From Blastocatellia bacterium (lineage in GTDB: Bacteria; Acidobacteriota; Blastocatellia; UBA7656): a stretch of 33,606 nt of DNA. Each line of letters starts with the position of its first letter. The stretch's first letter is position 1. The stretch is taken from positions 6,185 to 39,790 of the forward strand of contig JAHFUG010000012.1 in assembly GCA_023265195.1 (NCBI GenBank). The letters are read 5' to 3'. This document shows positions 2,189-29,661 of the stretch, one piece after another. Under the pieces are notes generated by a model. That model was given only the letters and a program-made list of their open reading frames with translations. It did not search any database and was not told where the DNA came from. Made by a program: the position numbers and the translations under genes.

Positions 2189-4159
2189 ATGCAAAGAAAG
2201 ATCTTCTGGACCCTGATATTCGCAGCGGCCGGATTCGTTGTTGCCGCTCAAAGCGCTTTTACTCCGAACGCTAATGGCCAGGGCCGGGCCGGCGCGAACG
2301 CCGACCTTATTGGGCAGAGAACCTCGATCGAGAAGGAACTGCAATCGATCGCGATCGTCGAGCGCAAGGTAATGGTTGCGATGCGCGACGGAAAACGCAT
2401 GGCGACCGACGTCTATCGCCCCAAAGACACGTCGAAGAAATATCCCGTGATTTTTGTACGCTCCCCGTACAACTTTAATTTCTGGGATGTCCGCAACGGC
2501 GCGCCGCGTAACATGAGCAATGAGCTCCAGGTGGTCAAGCGTGGATACGCACTGGTCGAAATGAACGAGCGCGGTCACTTCTTCTCGGAAGGCAACTACG
2601 ACATCCTGGGCCCACCGCTAAGCGACGGCGATGACGCCATATCTTGGATGGCCAAACAGCCCTGGTCGAATGGCAAGGTCGGTACGATCGGATGCTCGTC
2701 GACCGCGGAGTGGCAGTTGGGCGTCGCGGCGCGGGGGAATCCGGCGTTCGCCGCGATGATTCCACAAGGCTTCGGCGCTGGCGTGGGCCGTGTGGGCCCT
2801 TATTACGAGCAGGGGAATTGGTATCGCGGCGGCGCGGTGCAGATGTTGTTCATCGCTTGGCTGTATGGGGAGCAGAACCAGGTGCGGCCGATGTTTCCGC
2901 CGAACACGTCGCAAGAGGAATTGCTTCGCGCCTCAAAGTCGTTCGATCTGGCGCAGCAGCTCCCGCCCGTTGATTGGTCGCAGGCTCTACGCCACCTTCC
3001 CGTTATGGATATTATGAGGGCGGTGGATGGGCCCAAGGGAATCTTCGCCGACGAGACGCCGGTCGACACGGGCGGCGCGATGATCAAGCGCGCGCCTAAC
3101 GATCCGGCCTGGTACAAGGGCGGATTGTGGCACGACAACATGAAGATCAACGTGCCGGGCTTTTGGTTCATGTCCTGGTACGACGTCTCGGTGGGGCCGA
3201 ACCTGGCCGCCTACAATCAAGTGCGGAAGACCGCCAGACCCGAGATCGCTAACCAGCAGTATGCGGTGATCGCGCCGACGCTCCACTGCGCATATAGGTT
3301 CGCCTCAGAGAATACGATCGTCGGCGAGCGCAGCATGGGCGACGCGCGCCTGAACAACGATGATCTGACGTATGGATGGTTTGATTACTTCCTCAAGGGA
3401 GAGAACAACCACATTCTGGAAACAATGCCCAAGGTCCGTTACTTCACGATGGGGATCAACAAGTGGCAGTCGTCGGACACCTGGCCGCCCCGCGGCGCGC
3501 AACAGATGAGCTTCTTTCTGTCGAGTTCCGGAAAAGCAAACACCCTCAACGGGGACGGGCGGCTCGGCGATGCGGCTCCATCAGAAGACAGCGCCGACCG
3601 ATTCGACTACGACCCGATGAATCCGGTTCCGTCCTACGGTGGAAACGTCTGTTGCACCGGCAACGCGGTGCAAGGCGGCGCCTTCGACCAGCGAAAGATG
3701 GAAGAGCGGCCCGACATTTTGGTTTACAGCACCGAGCCCCTGAAAGAAGGCGTCGAGGTGAGCGGCTCGATCGAGGTAACTCTGTACGTATCGTCGGACG
3801 CCAAGGACACGGACTTCACCGTGAAGTTGATTGACGTGTATCCGGACGGGCGCGCTTACAACCTGGACGAAACGATTCAGCGGGCGAGGTATCGGAACGG
3901 GTACGACAAGCCCGTCGCATGGATGGAGCCGGGCAAAGTCTACAAGGTGACGCTCCAGCCGATGACGACCAGCAACTACTTCGAAGCGGGCCATAGGATT
4001 CGGATTGAGGTGTCGAGCAGCAACTTCCCGCGGTTCGATCGAAACTTGAACACGGGAGGGAAGAACTACGACGAATCAAAGGGCGTGGTTGCGCACAACG
4101 CCGTCCACCACTCGAAACAGTATCCATCAGAGGTGAAGCTGACGGTAGTGAAGAAGTAG
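2189..4159 (+). CDS. CocE/NonD family hydrolase (X-Pro dipeptidyl-peptidase-like), secreted
   Basis: ATG at 2189 gives signal peptide [24 protein letters not shown]-terminal [20 protein letters not shown], nucleophile region [13 protein letters not shown]-terminal jelly-roll region with [16 protein letters not shown] typical of CocE/NonD enzymes. Confidence 0.92.
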
Positions 4160-4419
4160 GGGACGACGTAAGTGGATGATCTGCCTCGTTGACGGATTGG
4201 AATGTTTGTGGGTTGCGTTGTGCGCCCAGCTACCAATCCCGTATGGTTCTTTATCTCCGCGCGCCACCGCGGCGCAAGATTCATTATTATGCAAATCGCT
4301 TGCAACCTGAGCGTCGAACAAGCCGGCTACGTGATACGATTTCAGCCGGAGGTTGTCAATGGGCATCGCTCAAGCGATAACGACTGATCGGGAGAATGAC
4401 GCATCGAGGGCATTGATCC

Positions 4420-20968: not shown

Positions 20969-23464
20969 GTGAAGAAGAAACCATGTGCGGGCGGCGCTCC
21001 GTGGCCGCCCCTCTTTAAGAAACATACTCCTGAGTTTTCGACGACAACCTCAGTTCCGCCGCTTTTGAACGCGATCTCTGCTTACGGAGTGGCGGTAACG
21101 GAGGGCCGCCCGTACAGCGCTGTTCACCCGGCCGGGCGATATTCGAATCTGGCGCGTCGCGTAAGCGGCGCCGCGGCGTCAGTGATTTTTGTGACGTTGT
21201 CCCTCTTTCTTCAAGGTTCGGCGTTTCAAGCGGGCGGCGATGCGAAGCACCGCGTAGAAGGCGTCGTCAAAGATCAAACCGGCGCTCCGGTCGGGTATGC
21301 GGACGTGACCCTGACCGGGCCTGCCTTTTCGGCCAACACCATTACCAACAGTGAAGGACGATTCGTTTTCGAGGGCGTACAACAGCGGGCCGGCAAAATT
21401 ACCGTGCGGGCAAGCGGGTTCGCGGTGGGAGAGAGCAACTGGAAGATCGAAGGTTCGTCGGCCAATCTCGACATAACGTTGTCACTTGCTTCGGTCACCG
21501 ATCAGATCACCGTAACTGCCGCGCGCACTGAAACGAGACTCGGCGACACGCCTTCGAGCATTGCTCTTATTTCTCACGAGGCGCTCAACGCCACGGCCGC
21601 GCTTGCGCTCGACGACGCTTTGCGGCAGGTCCCTGGCTTCTCGCTCTTTCGCCGCTCCGGGAGCCGATACGCGAACCCAACGTCGCAAGGGGTGTCGCTA
21701 CGTGGCGTCGGGCCTAGCGGGGCAAGCCGCGCGTCCGTGCTCGTCGACGGAATTCCGTTGAACGATCCATTCGGAGGTTGGGTCTATTGGGGCCGAGTCT
21801 CTCGCGAATCGATCGAGCGAACGGAAATTCTGCGGGGGGGAGCCTCGAGTCTCTACGGGAGCGATGCGCTGGGCGGCGTCGTCAATGTAATAACGCGCAA
21901 GTCCAGCGACCCGGTGCTTCTCTTCGAAGGCTCCTACGGCAATCAGGCCACCCCGGCCACTTCCGTGTTCGCGGCGGGGCGGCTTGGCGCGTGGGGCGGG
22001 AGCTTCGCGGTTCACAACTTTCACACCGACGGCTACATTATCGTCGACGAGGCTCAAAGAGGACGCGTCGATACGCCGGCTGCGTCCGAATATTATTCCG
22101 TCGACTTGAACCTTGACCGCAAAATAGGCGAAACAGCGCGCGCCTTTGCTCGCGGATCGCTGTTTGGCGAGGCGCGCGAGAACGGAACGCCGCTTCAAAC
22201 GAACCGGACTCATATGCGGCAACTGGCCGCGGGAGTCGACTGGCGATCAAAGCTCGCCGGTACTTTTTCTCTCCGAGGGTTTGGGGGAACCGAGGTCTTC
22301 GATCAATACTTCACGGCTATCGCGGCGGATCGAAACAGTGAATCACTGACGCGAAGCCAGCGTTCGCCCTCACAACAAACGGGCCTTGCCGCGCAGTGGT
22401 CGAGACCCGCGGGATCAATCCAGACGTTTGTCGCCGGCATCGACGCGCGGCAAGTGCGCGGCGCCAGTAACGAGCTGGCGTTCGCCGCCGGAAGAGTAAC
22501 TTCCGCGGTCGAGGCCGGTGGGCGAGAAGGATTGTTTGGGATCTTTGGCGAAGACATCATCAGAATAGCGCGGCGCTGGTTTGTCACGGCGGGACTTCGC
22601 TTTGACCGTTGGCGCAACTACGCCGCGGCGTCCACCACCAAGCCGCTGGCGGCGCCTGGCCCTCGAGTGGTCACCGTGTTTCCCGACCGCGATGAAACCG
22701 CGGTCAGTCCTCGTTTGTCGGTGCTCAATAAGGTGACTGACAATGTATCGCTGCTCGCTTCGTTTTATCGGTCGTTCCGCGCTCCGACCCTCAATGAGTT
22801 GTACAGATCGTTCCGCGTCGGCAACGTCCTGACTCTCGCAAACGATAAGCTGCGCGCCGAACGGTTGACCGGCGGCGAGGCGGGCGTCAACGTGACGGCG
22901 TTCAAGCAGCGGTTGAATGCGCGAGGCGTCTTCTTTTGGAGCGAAGTCGACGGTCCCGTCGCTAACGTTACGCTCAGCGTCACGCCGGCCCTGATAACGA
23001 GACAGCGCCAGAACCTTGGCGGCACCCGGTCTCGCGGCGTTGAAATGGACGCGGAAGCAAGAATCACTCATACACTGACGCTGTCGGGCGGATATGAATT
23101 CCTCGACGCCACGGTGCTGAGTTTTCCCGCCAATGTATCTCTCGAAGGACTGATGATTCCGCAGGTGCCTCGTCATCAACTGACGTTTCAGATGAGGTAC
23201 AGCGATCCGTCGACGCTCAACGTGTCGTTCCAGGGCCGCTTCGCCAGCGCGCAGTTCGACGACGACCAGAACAAACTCGCGCTCAGCCGCTACTTCACCT
23301 TGGACGGAATGATCTCGCGTTCGCTCGGAAAAGGAGTCGAGCTTTTCGTGGCGGGAGAGAATCTCCTGAATCAAAGGTACGAGACCGGGCGTACGCCGGT
23401 GACGACATTGGGTCCGAGATTGCTGGCCCGAGCCGGAATCCGGTTGCAGCTCGGCGCGAAATGA
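20969..23464 (+). CDS. TonB-dependent receptor with N-terminal carboxypeptidase-regulatory-like domain
   Basis: VEGVVKDQTGAPVGYADVTLTG..., plug PSGASRASVLVDGIPLNDPFGGWVYWGRVSRESIERTEILRGGASSLYGSDALGGVVNVIT, C-terminal beta-barrel. N-terminal approx. 50 aa overlap a repeat element, so the start (GTG 20969 or downstream, e.g. GTG 21182) is uncertain. Confidence 0.9.
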   Translation: MKKKPCAGGAPWPPLFKKHTPEFSTTTSVPPLLNAISAYGVAVTEGRPYSAVHPAGRYSNLARRVSGAAASVIFVTLSLFLQGSAFQAGGDAKHRVEGVVKDQTGAPVGYADVTLTGPAFSANTITNSEGRFVFEGVQQRAGKITVRASGFAVGESNWKIEGSSANLDITLSLASVTDQITVTAARTETRLGDTPSSIALISHEALNATAALALDDALRQVPGFSLFRRSGSRYANPTSQGVSLRGVGPSGASRASVLVDGIPLNDPFGGWVYWGRVSRESIERTEILRGGASSLYGSDALGGVVNVITRKSSDPVLLFEGSYGNQATPATSVFAAGRLGAWGGSFAVHNFHTDGYIIVDEAQRGRVDTPAASEYYSVDLNLDRKIGETARAFARGSLFGEARENGTPLQTNRTHMRQLAAGVDWRSKLAGTFSLRGFGGTEVFDQYFTAIAADRNSESLTRSQRSPSQQTGLAAQWSRPAGSIQTFVAGIDARQVRGASNELAFAAGRVTSAVEAGGREGLFGIFGEDIIRIARRWFVTAGLRFDRWRNYAAASTTKPLAAPGPRVVTVFPDRDETAVSPRLSVLNKVTDNVSLLASFYRSFRAPTLNELYRSFRVGNVLTLANDKLRAERLTGGEAGVNVTAFKQRLNARGVFFWSEVDGPVANVTLSVTPALITRQRQNLGGTRSRGVEMDAEARITHTLTLSGGYEFLDATVLSFPANVSLEGLMIPQVPRHQLTFQMRYSDPSTLNVSFQGRFASAQFDDDQNKLALSRYFTLDGMISRSLGKGVELFVAGENLLNQRYETGRTPVTTLGPRLLARAGIRLQLGAK
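20984..21116. repeat. 133-bp element with inverted ends, TGTRCGGGCGGC-CTCCGT-CCGCC family
   Basis: Left end TGTGCGGGCGGCGCTCCGTGGCCGCCCC; reverse complement of right end TGTACGGGCGGCCCTCCGTTACCGCCACTCC. Lies inside the open frame of the TonB receptor. Confidence 0.75.
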
Positions 23465-23527
23465 GGGCTTCGCTTAGGGGATGAAAAAGGAATTAACTTC
23501 CGTTTTGACCGCCTGGCGCGGAATGAA

Positions 23528-23626
23528 TGTACGGGCGGCACTCCGTGGCCGCCCCTTCTTAGGGATCGGTTCTTCGCAAGAAGAATACGCGCCGGAAGGA
23601 GGGGCGGCCACGGAGACCCTCCGACA
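23528..23626. repeat. 99-bp second copy of the TGTACGGGCGGC...CTCCGTGGCCGCCCC inverted-end element
   Basis: Left end TGTACGGGCGGCACTCCGTGGCCGCCCCTTCTT; reverse complement of right end TGTCGGAGGGTCTCCGTGGCCGCCCCTCCTT. Confidence 0.8.
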
Positions 23627-23657: not shown

Positions 23658-23926
23658 TCAAAAGGGGGCGGTTCTACCCGAAACACCACGTCTATATGAC
23701 TGCGGTTTACGTCCACTCGCTTGACTAGCTAGCCCCGTTTCGGCGGCATATGCCTGCCGCTCTATTTCGTCAGGGCTTCCTTCCACCTGGACGTTTACAG
23801 AAATGACCACAACGCTGCCCGAAGTTGATCTCGCCGCAACCGTGGTGATGTCTGACAGCACAGCTTCATCAAGCTTCCCGTCATAATCAAGCCACACTAT
23901 CGACTTGGTCTCCCAGTCTAGGTTCA
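23658..23926 (-). pseudogene. Internal fragment of a methyltransferase-like protein (IVWLDYDGKLD motif), fused out of frame to the herA 3' end
   Basis: C-terminal part of the 136-aa ORF: NLDWETKSIVWLDYDGKLDEAVLSDITTVAARSTSGSVVVISVNVQVEGSPDEIERQAYAAET looks like a coherent Rossmann-type segment, whereas the N-terminal 45 aa are the wrong-frame reading of HerA sequence. Confidence 0.5.
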
Positions 23927-25276
23927 CTGAGGGAATTCGGCGAGAAGTGGATTCCGCATTCAGCCAACTCCGCGAAGTTGGTCGCGTGGCCGCCAGTCGT
24001 AACGAACGCATCGGCGTCCTGCGAAGCCAGCCATACAGGAAATCCCCACGAACGCCCTTGCCGCGCAAGTTGACCCAGCAGACCCGCCTTACCCTTCCTT
24101 GGGCAATAGAAGATGGGCTTCGTCGACGAACAAGACCATCTTGAGGGGCTGAATGCGTTTCTTGATCGCCTGGTTCCGGTTCATGCGCTTCATAAGAAAG
24201 TTCAGGATCAGAGCCATAGTCAGCGCCTTGGTTTCACTGTCCGTGCCGAATTGCTTGAAGTCTATGACGACCGAATTGCTTAGCCACTCTTCTGGGCTGA
24301 TCGCGGTGGGCGCGGTCGCAAACAAGTTGAAGCGTTCGATCTTCTGAATTATGGAGAGGTCTACTCCGTTCGCTCCGCTCTCTTCTAAAGCGATAGCCAG
24401 GGAGGTGAAGTCTGGCTCGCGAAGCCCTTGATACGCGTCGCAAATGTTGCGCTCCTGCTTCGCGCCGAGTTGAGGTGCAAAGCAACGGATGAGATTCGCG
24501 ATCTCGTACGCGACCTGTGCATTCCCGGTTGGGTTCGAGTCTCGGAAAAGTGGATTGATCGGCAAATCCTGTTTAATGAGACGGACGTACCGCGCCCCCG
24601 TCTGCTCTAAAAAAAGAGTCCGGTTCTTGCGCTGGTCGCTGTTGTGTGGATCGTCTTCCAACTCGCCCTTCAAGTCGAAGAAGCAGAAGCGGACGCCCTG
24701 TCCCGCCAGTTGCGCGAGCAAGTCGAGCGCAAGCTGGCTCTTGCCCGAACCGGGCTCGCCCGAGATCACAAGCAGACCATTCTTGGTTCCCGGACCGTTG
24801 ATGCTCCATTCAGGTCCTTCCACAAGAACTTTGAGCTTGACCTCTTGCTCTACGACCGGCATGGGCGCCCCTGCCCTGACCACGCCGCCGCCGTCAAAAT
24901 CCTTGTCGGCGAGTTTCAGCAACAACGAGACGAACCTTGTCTGATCGTTGCCTGACTCTTCCCAAAACTGACTGAGCCTGTGGCAACCGAACTCAAAGTA
25001 CCGGCGAAACTCCGATCTATATCCTGCTTCATCCAGCGTCCTGCCCGCGCGATGATTCAGGGCGGCGCGCACGAGGTCTCTTAACTCAACGCCAACGACT
25101 TGCTCATCGTTGAGCGTCACTCCCTTCGAATCCATTGGCTTGAAGTTAGTGGGCACTCCTTCGCCCAGCGCGACAAACAGCGCCGCGCGGCCAAGGACCG
25201 CTTGATTGCGCGCGCCAACCCGAGCGAAAACGTTCTCGATGAACTGATGAGCAGCAGCGCTGGTATCGAATTTCAT
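23887..25276 (-). pseudogene. DndE (DUF1832)-like domain fused to a HerA/FtsK-type ATPase; frameshifted near 24090
   Basis: True start ATG 25276 (MKFDTSAAAHQFIENVFARVGARNQAVLGRAALFVALGEG...). Walker A ISGEPGSGKSQLAL, Walker B KMVLFVDEAHLLLPKEG then TAA. Another frame continues immediately with KAGLLGQLARQGRSWGFPVWLASQDADAFVTTGGHATNFAELAECGIHFSP, the expected post-Walker B HerA sequence. Confidence 0.7.
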
Positions 25277-25282
25277 CTCAAT

Positions 25283-25539
25283 CTCACTCTTTGGTGACCT
25301 GCGGCGTCTGTATGTTCTGCCTGAACACTGCACTAAGGCTGGCGAACCAAGCCTCGTAGACATCGCGATCCGCTTCCAGCAACTTCGCCGTCTTCCGCGC
25401 CCCGCGCCTGAACGCCGCGCGGGACTGCCAGTCCAGCGTGCTATGAAAGACGTCTTCTCGCATGATGAACTCGATCTTGGTTGCATCGTCGGGGCTGCAG
25501 CCAAGTGTCTTCGACGATCATCTCCTCGTAGGTGCTCAT
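25283..25539 (-). pseudogene. Small dnd-associated ORF with a frameshift
   Basis: RBS GAGGAG then ATG 25539: MSTYEEMIVEDTWL, then frame change near 25495-25505 to SPDDATKIEFIMREDVFHSTLDWQSRAAFRRGARKTAKLLEADRDVYEAWFASLSAVFRQNIQTPQVTKE, stop at 25283, 6 bp before the ATG of the DndE-HerA gene. Confidence 0.55.
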
Positions 25540-25555
25540 TGCTTCTCCTCTTCGA

Positions 25556-25990
25556 TCACAGGTCGCGGCCGAAGTAGTCGTTGGTAATCCGAACTTCGTA
25601 GTCGGTCCCTTCGGGCTTGCCGTGCGGGCGCAAGGTGTACACGCGAGCCAGTCGGTCGCCTATCGTTTCGAACATCGGCCCGTCAGGATCGACTTCGGAG
25701 TTGGTAGTGAGAATTATCGACTGATGCCCGCTCAGGTAGAGTTGATCCAGCACATTCGCTCTCACTTCCTTATCCAGGCGCGCGAAAGGAGTATCCACGA
25801 CGAGCGGAGGCACAAGTTTGGCTAGCCTGCGCAAGGCTTCATAGAAAGCGAGCATGCGAACCAGCCTCTGCCCGGCTGTGGCATTTGTCTCTTCCCAAGT
25901 GACCTTCTTGCCGTCGCGCCGAATCAAGGAACACTGCCATTGGCTACCCTGTCGCGGGTTTGTTTCCAACACTCGTAGGAGAGGAATTTG
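25556..25990 (-). pseudogene. 5'-truncated DndD (SMC-like ATPase of DNA phosphorothioation), C-terminal fragment
   Basis: TAGQRLVRMLAFYEALRRLAKLVPPLVVDTPFARLDKEVRANVLDQLYLSGHQSIILTTNSEVDPDGPMFETIGDRLARVYTL: Walker B/D-loop end of a DndD-like ATPase. No Walker A half upstream; in-frame TAG just upstream near 25991-25993. Confidence 0.7.
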
Positions 25991-26040
25991 TTTGCGCTAC
26001 TCGGCGACAACTTATGCGTGCGCTTGACATGCAATAACTC

Positions 26041-26769
26041 CTAAACAACACCCAACTCCAAAGCCAATTCATCAAGCAGGCCGCTGTCCGCGAAGCTGAA
26101 GACCGACTCTTCGCCGATGATCAGATGATCCAGTATCTTTACCGCCAGCGGCCGCGCCGCTTTCATCAAGTCACGCGTCAAAAGCCGATCCGGTTTGCTT
26201 GGCTCCGTTGTCCCCGATGGGTGATTGTGAGCCGCGATCAGCGCGCTGGCGTTCACTTGCAGCGCGCGCCCAAGAATGATCCGCAGCGGCGGCGTTACCG
26301 AATCCACGGCGCCTTTTGCGATCAGCACGTCGTCCAGCAGCGCTCCTCGCCGGTTCAAGTAGAGGACTCGAAAGTGTTCCTCGGATAGTCCGCGCAGCCT
26401 GTCGCGCAAGTACTCCGCGGCGGCGGCGGTGCTCTTCAACACGAGATGACTTCGTTTCTTTGGAACCGAGACGCGGCGGCAAATCTCGACCGCCGCGAGT
26501 AACTGAGCGGCCTTCGCTCCCTTCAAGCCTTTTACGTCGAGCAAGGCCGCCACCGGCGCTTCAATCATCGCCCGCAAAGATCCAAACCGCTGCAAGAGCT
26601 GCCGCCCTAGTTCAACCGCGCTCGTGCCCCTGAGCCCCACGCGAAGGAGTATTCCGATCAACTCGGCGTCCGTCAGCGCGTCGGGCCCGCGTGACAGAAG
26701 CCGCTCTCGCGGCCTCTCTTCTTCAGGCCACGAGGCGATTCCTTTTGTTCTTTCTTTTATTGCTTCCAC
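26041..26769 (-). CDS. radC: RadC family protein (JAB/MPN domain)
   Basis: IASWPEEERPRERLLSRGPDALTDAELIGILLRVG; JAMM-type EEHFRVLYLNRRGALLDD...ALIAAHNHPSGTTEPSKPD; VKILDHLIIGEESVFSFADSGLL. Confidence 0.94.
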   Translation of the reverse strand: MEAIKERTKGIASWPEEERPRERLLSRGPDALTDAELIGILLRVGLRGTSAVELGRQLLQRFGSLRAMIEAPVAALLDVKGLKGAKAAQLLAAVEICRRVSVPKKRSHLVLKSTAAAAEYLRDRLRGLSEEHFRVLYLNRRGALLDDVLIAKGAVDSVTPPLRIILGRALQVNASALIAAHNHPSGTTEPSKPDRLLTRDLMKAARPLAVKILDHLIIGEESVFSFADSGLLDELALELGVV

Positions 26770-27673: not shown

Positions 27674-27719
27674 GAATCAATGAAAAGGGCGGCCTCCGTG
27701 GCCGCCCGTTCCTGATTCG
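27674..27719. terminator. Hairpin GAATCA...GGGCGGC-CTCCGTG-GCCGCCC...TGATTC between convergent msrB and beta-barrel genes
   Basis: Perfect 7-bp GC stem with CTCCGTG loop plus flanking GAATCA/TGATTC; the core is shared with the repeats at 20984 and 23528. No clear T-tract. Confidence 0.5.
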
Positions 27720-28767: not shown

Positions 28768-29661
28768 ATGACGATCGGCGATTCAAAGACGGAACTTACC
28801 GAGCGTGAGATGGTGCGCGAGGCTCAGATTGGAGACAGGAGCGCCTTCAAGACGCTCTACGATTTGTATCGCGACCGTGTCTATACCGCGGCCTACTATT
28901 CGCTGAGAGACTCGCTGGCGGCGGAAGACACATTGCAGACCGTTTTCTTGAAAGTGCATCGGCGAATCGACCTGAGGCCGAACTTTTCCCGCTATGTGCA
29001 CGGCGAGTTACGGCCCGCGCGGCTCCGAAAAATCGAAGATCACCTCTTCGATTGCGGCGAGTGCCGCGCGAGACTTGCGCGCGTTCAAGCAATTCACATG
29101 CTGGCAAGTCAGTTGCCTCGCGAAGCGCCGTTTCGCGATCCGTGGGACGCAATCGAAGCCGCGCTTTCACCCACGCAGTCCCGGCGGCCGGCGGGCGAAG
29201 AGCGGGTACGGCCGGCCAGACTCAAATCGTTTTTGAGATCTCACTCCGTTGCTCTATCGCTCGGCGTCATCGCCGCTGTGCTGATCCTGGCTCTTGCTTT
29301 GGCGCTGGGACGTCACAAGGAGTCTTATTTAGTTGCGAAGGACGCGCTGGACCTGCGCGAGTTTCATCCGGTCAGTATTGCCGAAATGGAGCGAACAACC
29401 AGGCCGCACGTGGTGGCCGAGGGTTACGTCAGCGAGATGCGAATAAACGACGAAGACGGCGACTTGAGTTTCAAGCTGGTCGACGACCTCGGACAGGCCG
29501 GCCCCTTCATCGTGTGCGAGATCATCGACCCGATTAGAGTCGAGCCTCCATCCATCGGCAGCCGCGTACGCGTCTACGGAGTCAGCCGCTATGACAATCA
29601 GCGGAATCACAACTGGTATGAAGTCCATCCGGTATTGGGGATCGAGGTTGTGCGCCATTGA
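28768..29661 (+). CDS. Fusion of sigma-70 region 2 (ECF type) with zinc-finger anti-sigma domain, TM helix and C-terminal OB-fold-like domain
   Basis: MVREAQIGDRSAFKTLYDLYRDRVYTAAYYSLRDSLAAEDTLQTVFLKVHRRI (sigma region 2), directly followed by FSRYVHGELRPARLRKIEDHLFDCGECRARL (Hx3Cx2C anti-sigma finger), TM SVALSLGVIAAVLILALALAL, then VVAEGYVSEMRINDEDGDLSFKLVDDLGQAGPFIVCEIIDPIRVEPPSIGSRVRVYGVSRYD. Confidence 0.8.
   Translation: MTIGDSKTELTEREMVREAQIGDRSAFKTLYDLYRDRVYTAAYYSLRDSLAAEDTLQTVFLKVHRRIDLRPNFSRYVHGELRPARLRKIEDHLFDCGECRARLARVQAIHMLASQLPREAPFRDPWDAIEAALSPTQSRRPAGEERVRPARLKSFLRSHSVALSLGVIAAVLILALALALGRHKESYLVAKDALDLREFHPVSIAEMERTTRPHVVAEGYVSEMRINDEDGDLSFKLVDDLGQAGPFIVCEIIDPIRVEPPSIGSRVRVYGVSRYDNQRNHNWYEVHPVLGIEVVRH

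Follow-up and report, generated by a model that had tools for sequence, protein, structure and literature searches.

In all likelihood, the genes located downstream of an intact radC gene, at positions 23727-25940 on the minus strand of the window analysed here (a stretch of 33,606 nucleotides), are what is left of a DNA-phosphorothioation defence operon that died recently and belonged to the kind in which DndE is fused to HerA. The host is a soil acidobacterium represented by a draft MAG of 7.5 Mb in 686 contigs. The MAG is 94% complete, and genes missing from it could be located in the about 6% of the genome outside the assembly. All alignments refer to the intact operon of Blastocatellia bacterium AA13 (QHVH01000021.1; locus L006), which belongs to the same genus. 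Phosphorothioation introduces sulfur into the DNA backbone and thereby marks a cell's own DNA versus that of invaders. In the Dnd families, the desulfurase DndA supplies sulfur to DndC, the coiled-coil ABC ATPase DndD scans the DNA together with DndE, and a non-bridging oxygen is exchanged for sulfur where a target site is met. HerA proteins form hexamers that act as DNA motors.

Remnants of four genes were detected on the minus strand in the order dndD end, small gene, dndE-herA, and a piece of a Methyltransf_35 gene (MT35, PF20553), as listed in Table 1. The preliminary description of this DNA had named the same pieces, a DndD-like C-terminal fragment without its N-terminal half, a small ORF needing one frameshift, a DndE-HerA ATPase and a methyltransferase-like fragment, and all four identifications were borne out. 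Its span of 23658-25993 needs minor correction, since no homology to the operon is found between 23658 and 23727.

The dndD fragment was recognized by the DndD model of PADLOC (1.7e-14, profile positions 542-658 of 659) and by TIGR03185 (1.3e-14, positions 534-650 of 650), and it shows 72% amino acid identity to residues 562-688 of the intact 688-aa DndD of AA13. The 5' four-fifths of the gene (82%) are gone, and the break lies at most about 100 bp from the radC stop codon. The small gene begins 16 bp past the dndD stop and ends 7 bp ahead of the dndE start, a tight operon spacing. Both of its frame pieces reach codon-usage scores (0.27-0.34) which match those of true genes (0.28 ± 0.10) and are far from those of wrong frames (-0.39 ± 0.20); therefore, the small ORF very probably once was a genuine gene. 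Its single frameshift, near 25490-25500, is placed solely by codon usage in a gene without an intact homologue. No homologues of the small gene were detected in NCBIfam or plasmids, nor of its 59-aa piece in Pfam, PADLOC or 396 Acidobacteriota genomes, and the gene is missing from the AA13 operon.

The true start of dndE-herA is the ATG at 25276 and not position 25504 of the mechanically defined ORF. Up to a frameshift near 24095, its product is 77% identical over 394 codons to the 493-aa homologue of AA13; homology then continues at 83% over 60 codons and reaches 23921, where the final 42 or so codons are deleted. The DndE domain (PF08870) scores 7e-4 in the window, which is below the cut-off, and 3.3e-9 in the AA13 homologue, which is above it. 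In the HerA part, the Walker motifs A (GEPGSGKS) and B (VLFVDEAH) can still be read; among PADLOC models it matches mad8 best, and the HerA domain also hits DndH. The MT35 remnant matches PF20553 (1.1e-13, profile positions 87-153 of 309), contains the motif WLDYDG and is 78% identical over 65 codons to residues 101-165 of the protein encoded by L006:523-1524.

Table 1. Remnants of the operon and adjacent features in the window
Feature	Position	Strand	Remarks
Dispersed palindromic repeat of about 100 bp, just past the MT35 remnant, outside the system	23515..23622		27-nt arms, 85% complementary
MT35 (PF20553) remnant, internal stretch of 65 codons (full gene 333 codons), both ends lost	23727..23921	-	
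Deletion junction relative to the sister operon, about 1.8 kb missing	23921..23921	-	blastn pieces meeting at one base
dndE-herA fusion pseudogene encoding a DndE domain and a HerA/FtsK ATPase	23921..25276	-	identity to L006:2906-4387
Orphan small gene, about 84 codons, between dndD and dndE-herA	25284..25539	-	two reading-frame pieces
dndD remnant, final 127 or so codons of an ABC-ATPase gene of about 688 codons (Walker B end)	25559..25939 (ORF 25556-25972)	-	
radC (UPF0758), intact neighbour, outside the system	26041..26769	-	PF04002 3.8e-35 and PF20582 1e-25, full length

The adjacency of radC, which had been mentioned in the preliminary description, is without meaning: radC of AA13 is located on a different contig, and that contig does not contain dnd genes. 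Comparison of the radC sites of window and sister revealed no synteny and no empty site. The palindromic repeat has 57 matches in the host genome, some of them to a single arm, as in a REP/MITE-like family, and short pieces of it are also present at 20997-21009 and 27694-27706 of the window. Elsewhere in the window, an ORF at 28768-29661 starts with a sigma-70 region-2-like sequence that runs into a zinc-finger anti-sigma-like part; possibly, it arose when a deletion joined the genes of an ECF sigma factor and its anti-sigma factor.

In AA13, dndC, dndD, dndE-herA, a GHKL ATPase gene and the MT35 gene are arranged on a single strand, with dndA nearby. Spacing of these genes is -8, 63, 14, and -4 bp, and they are therefore considered an operon. 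DndC (438 aa) exceeds the cut-off of TIGR03183 (2.5e-114) and possesses the PP-loop SGGKDST and a four-cysteine cluster. DndD is detected by PADLOC (6.7e-66), the GHKL ATPase (456 aa) by PF13589 and MT35 (333 aa) by PF20553 (1e-100). The DndA cysteine desulfurase (PADLOC 2.3e-144) is encoded about 1.7 kb beyond the end of the MT35 gene on the opposite strand, adjoined by an HNH protein. The remnants with counterparts match the AA13 genes at 72-83% amino acid identity, in the same order and on the same strand. The earlier suspicion of a wrecked phosphorothioation cluster, which had been based solely on the association of the genes, is thus supported: the sister operon corresponds to the wreck one gene after another and has a counterpart even for the methyltransferase-like piece. 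The ancestral order shown by this comparison would have been dndC-dndD-(small gene, in this lineage)-dndE.herA-GHKL ATPase-MT35, as in AA13 apart from the small gene. AA13 provides the single intact operon of exactly this layout that is known.

Of the genes characteristic of Dnd systems, dndC is missing from window and MAG and present in AA13, dndD is represented in the window by the C-terminal fragment only and in AA13 at full length, and dndE is present in fusion with herA. As in the DndE-HerA fusion subset, DndE and HerA are joined in a single polypeptide whose gene neighbours that of a DndD-type ATPase. Since dndC is absent, the window harbors a remnant and not a working Dnd member. An origin from a relative of Dnd sharing a DndD-like or HerA-like ATPase, either the CxC/PbeABCD branch or MADS, is extremely improbable: PbeC models give the dndD fragment almost as good a score and mad8 is the best PADLOC model for the HerA part, but the AA13 operon contains dndC, and the mad8 match spans the ATPase only. 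In the PADLOC scan of the AA13 operon and its neighbours, the sole other MADS-type match is a partial one to mad2, which covers 107 residues of a generic methyltransferase encoded just outside the operon on the other strand. Both candidates were rejected, MADS because the set mad1-mad8 is not present and mad8 is hit through the common HerA domain only, CxC/PbeABCD because AA13 DndD has no CxC or CxxC zinc hook, no gene for a PbeA HKD-SF2 protein is found in the operon and dndC is there.

Comparison with AA13 also defined the lesions. In blastn alignments, positions 23765-23921 correspond to 1068-1224 of the AA13 locus and positions 23921-25246 to 3033-4357, with base 23921 shared at the junction. 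The deletion of about 1.8 kb removed the 3' end of herA, the entire GHKL gene and the 5' third of the MT35 gene and fused herA to MT35. Further losses relative to the sister concern dndC, most of dndD and the 3' half of the MT35 gene, and one frameshift each is found in the small gene and in dndE-herA; these events together would account for the death of the operon. Comparison with a sister genome, a check suggested in the preliminary description, has yielded an intact cluster, and since dndC and the N-terminal part of DndD are both present in it, their absence from the window represents loss. The absence of dndB, also noted in the preliminary description, is not a sign of decay: among the proteins scanned from the AA13 operon and its neighbourhood (about 36 kb) no match to DndB, DndF or DndG was obtained, and the DndH models matched only the HerA portion of DndE-HerA.

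In the 94%-complete MAG, dndC was not found anywhere, in a search run without a separate positive control. Searches of the whole MAG also failed to detect the N-terminal part or any other piece of dndD and further pieces of dndE-herA or MT35, including the MT35 ends. These results bear on the question of whether the operon is in truth intact and only misrepresented in the consensus of the MAG through an assembly or sequencing artefact, which is very unlikely. The assembly is a draft in 686 contigs, and the two single frameshifts could be errors in it. Three lesions, however, the disappearance of dndC together with most of dndD, the 1.8-kb deletion with its clean junction and the loss of the MT35 3' end, are large structural changes of a kind that point errors in sequencing cannot produce. 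Moreover, the missing parts searched for (dndC, the dndD N-terminus and the MT35 ends) are nowhere else in the assembly, and the neighbouring genes are intact.

Divergence between the remnants and the sister genes is 0.10-0.14 at second and 0.43-0.65 at third codon positions, compared with 0.07 and 0.54 for radC; dS between window and sister is saturated. Because divergence is dominated by third positions and close to the pattern of radC, the pieces of the operon must have been under selection for nearly all their history, and their decay is recent. A codon pattern that still looks selected, together with readable Walker A and B motifs, could also be expected if the shortened DndE-HerA ORF or the remaining piece of DndD were retained for another role, as a minimal device still at work. 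The probability of such a device is next to negligible: the C-terminal core of HerA lies beyond the frameshift and its end is deleted, DndD is without its N-terminal Walker A half, and merely recent decay should leave the same codon pattern. The dead remnant is predicted to be no longer able to modify or restrict DNA, and the DNA of the window strain is predicted to be negative for phosphorothioate. The wreck itself is an ordinary case of defence-island turnover.

DndE-HerA fusions are not new and have already been described: Rakesh, Aravind and Krishnan (2024, PMC10853773) reported a fusion beside a DndD-type gene as HerA/FtsK clade-3, which occurs in some Dnd systems. When 396 Acidobacteriota were scanned, DndE was detected in nine, five of which contain long fused frames. 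According to sequence motifs inspected by eye, one fused locus (L047) includes dndC and dndD, a second (L048) dndD, and a third (L046) dndC without dndD. The last, at 5691-10743 of L046 (genome G003), consists of dndC, an HNH-like gene, a PIN gene and dndE-herA, and this dnd locus looks incomplete. GHKL-MT35 is not present at any of these other Acidobacteriota loci. Searches of plasmids and viral contigs and a pattern scan of genome contigs revealed no close DndE-HerA relative except that of AA13, and plasmid matches at relaxed E values were to generic HerA or DptH. Searching the sequences of solved structures gave nothing for DndE-HerA, GHKL or MT35.

The two proteins at the end of the AA13 operon belong to phrog_20521 (GHKL) and phrog_19983 (MT35), both annotated without function. 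PF13589 is present in 14 of 14 GHKL members; PADLOC has no specific model for this protein, and four of the 14 match MzaB weakly. AlphaFold models built from the alignments of the loci are of high confidence (pLDDT 86 for GHKL, 89 for MT35). The GHKL model matches MORC2, MORC3, SMCHD1, Hsp90, and GyrB over the ATPase and S5 domains, with about 400 residues covered for MORC2, SMCHD1 and Hsp90. That of MT35 shows a class-I SAM-methyltransferase fold with weak TM scores and no close specific relative. A GHKL ATPase combined with an S5 domain and found in restriction-modification neighbourhoods characterizes paraMORCs; the AA13 protein shows these features and, based on the model, can be regarded as paraMORC-like. 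Restriction-modification systems containing paraMORCs are the subject of Iyer, Abhiman and Aravind (2008, PMC2292703), and the available part of that paper does not mention phosphorothioation genes. Neither a GHKL-MT35 tail of a Dnd operon nor the recurrence of this pair as a module linked to DNA modification was found described in the literature searched.

With the AA13 proteins as queries, MT35 adjoined GHKL in every bacterial context examined. The pair is located inside DISARM on plasmid pR24_2 of Microvirga terrae and, split by an insertion, near a C5 methylase on pSymA of Sinorhizobium meliloti. In two Acidobacteriota, it is flanked by Vsr and a C5 methylase (L027) or preceded by an N6/N4 methylase (L028), and in the filamentous phage PfAC20 it lies beside a C5 methylase. 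Searching viral contigs with GHKL alone identified 18 loci; in 16 of these MT35 follows directly, and in 16 a C5 methylase is adjacent, sometimes with Vsr (four C5 and two Vsr genes were confirmed by Pfam, the remainder by motif). Two viral loci without MT35 carry a longer GHKL gene, whose extra C-terminal part could stand in for MT35. Distant archaeal relatives of GHKL are not followed by an annotated MT35 gene.

Several details of these loci may be added. On S. meliloti pSymA (KH46; L021, 8205-13350), the insertion is an IS66-like transposase and the start of MT35 is missing. The longer GHKL proteins (573-581 aa; L066, 5953-7674, and L068, 5977-7722) are encoded beside a C5 methylase, and in L066 the extra part has no Pfam match. 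Overall, the pair recurs among L051-L068 (in 16 of these 18) as well as on L050, L022, L027, and L028, and many of these are phage or prophage contigs.

By homology, DndA would transfer sulfur to DndC in this operon, while DndD and DndE would scan the DNA. The HerA motor fused to DndE may pump or track DNA and couple scanning to translocation. The co-transcribed GHKL-MT35 pair, a paraMORC-like ATP clamp and a SAM-binding protein, would act on unmodified DNA, a role suggested by its recurrence beside other DNA-modification genes. Probably, the two genes form a portable unit that serves as a companion or as a restriction module. The minimal triads of C5 methylase, GHKL and MT35 contain no evident nuclease, and therefore either a host nuclease would be recruited or DNA would be blocked without cleavage. 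Alternatively, the pair may help modification and not restriction. More tentatively, and with the balance tilted somewhat against it, GHKL-MT35 could be a portable restriction module that works irrespective of which self-mark the host uses (C5-methylcytosine, an N-methyl base, the DISARM mark or phosphorothioate) and that replaced DndFGH as effector in the window lineage. The wreck has led to an intact unusual phosphorothioation operon and to a pair of genes common to DNA-marking systems of different chemistry. Should this pair be the part that carries out restriction, a single effector could work with more than one type of self-mark, which would bear on DNA restriction in the many Dnd systems without DndFGH and on the role of bacterial MORC-like ATPases.

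Compared with known systems, the AA13 operon shares homologues of DndA, DndC, DndD, and DndE with canonical DndABCDE (plus DndFGH), but DndE is fused to a HerA motor, the genes of the tail are other ones, and neither DndB nor DndFGH was seen in about 36 kb. With the clade-3 Dnd subset it has in common DndE and HerA/FtsK in one polypeptide by a DndD-type ATPase, along with the dndC and dndA genes of AA13. It differs in that GHKL-MT35 completes the operon of AA13, the text of PMC10853773 being without MORC, GHKL or Hsp90, and in that the version in the window is dead. MADS possesses a related HerA-like ATPase domain in mad8, whereas a complete set of the other MADS genes is absent here and a DndE domain, dndC, and dndD are present. 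DISARM of Microvirga terrae pR24_2 likewise contains the adjacent pair in a modification-linked defence operon, but this host system is composed of DrmD/MmeI-type/DrmA/DUF1998/DrmC and is not Dnd. Finally, paraMORC systems (PMC2292703) also combine a GHKL and S5 ATPase with neighbouring C5 methylases and Vsr; in contrast to these, the GHKL protein considered here has a constant SAM-fold partner of the MT35 family, does not need a helicase, and is attached in AA13 to phosphorothioation genes.
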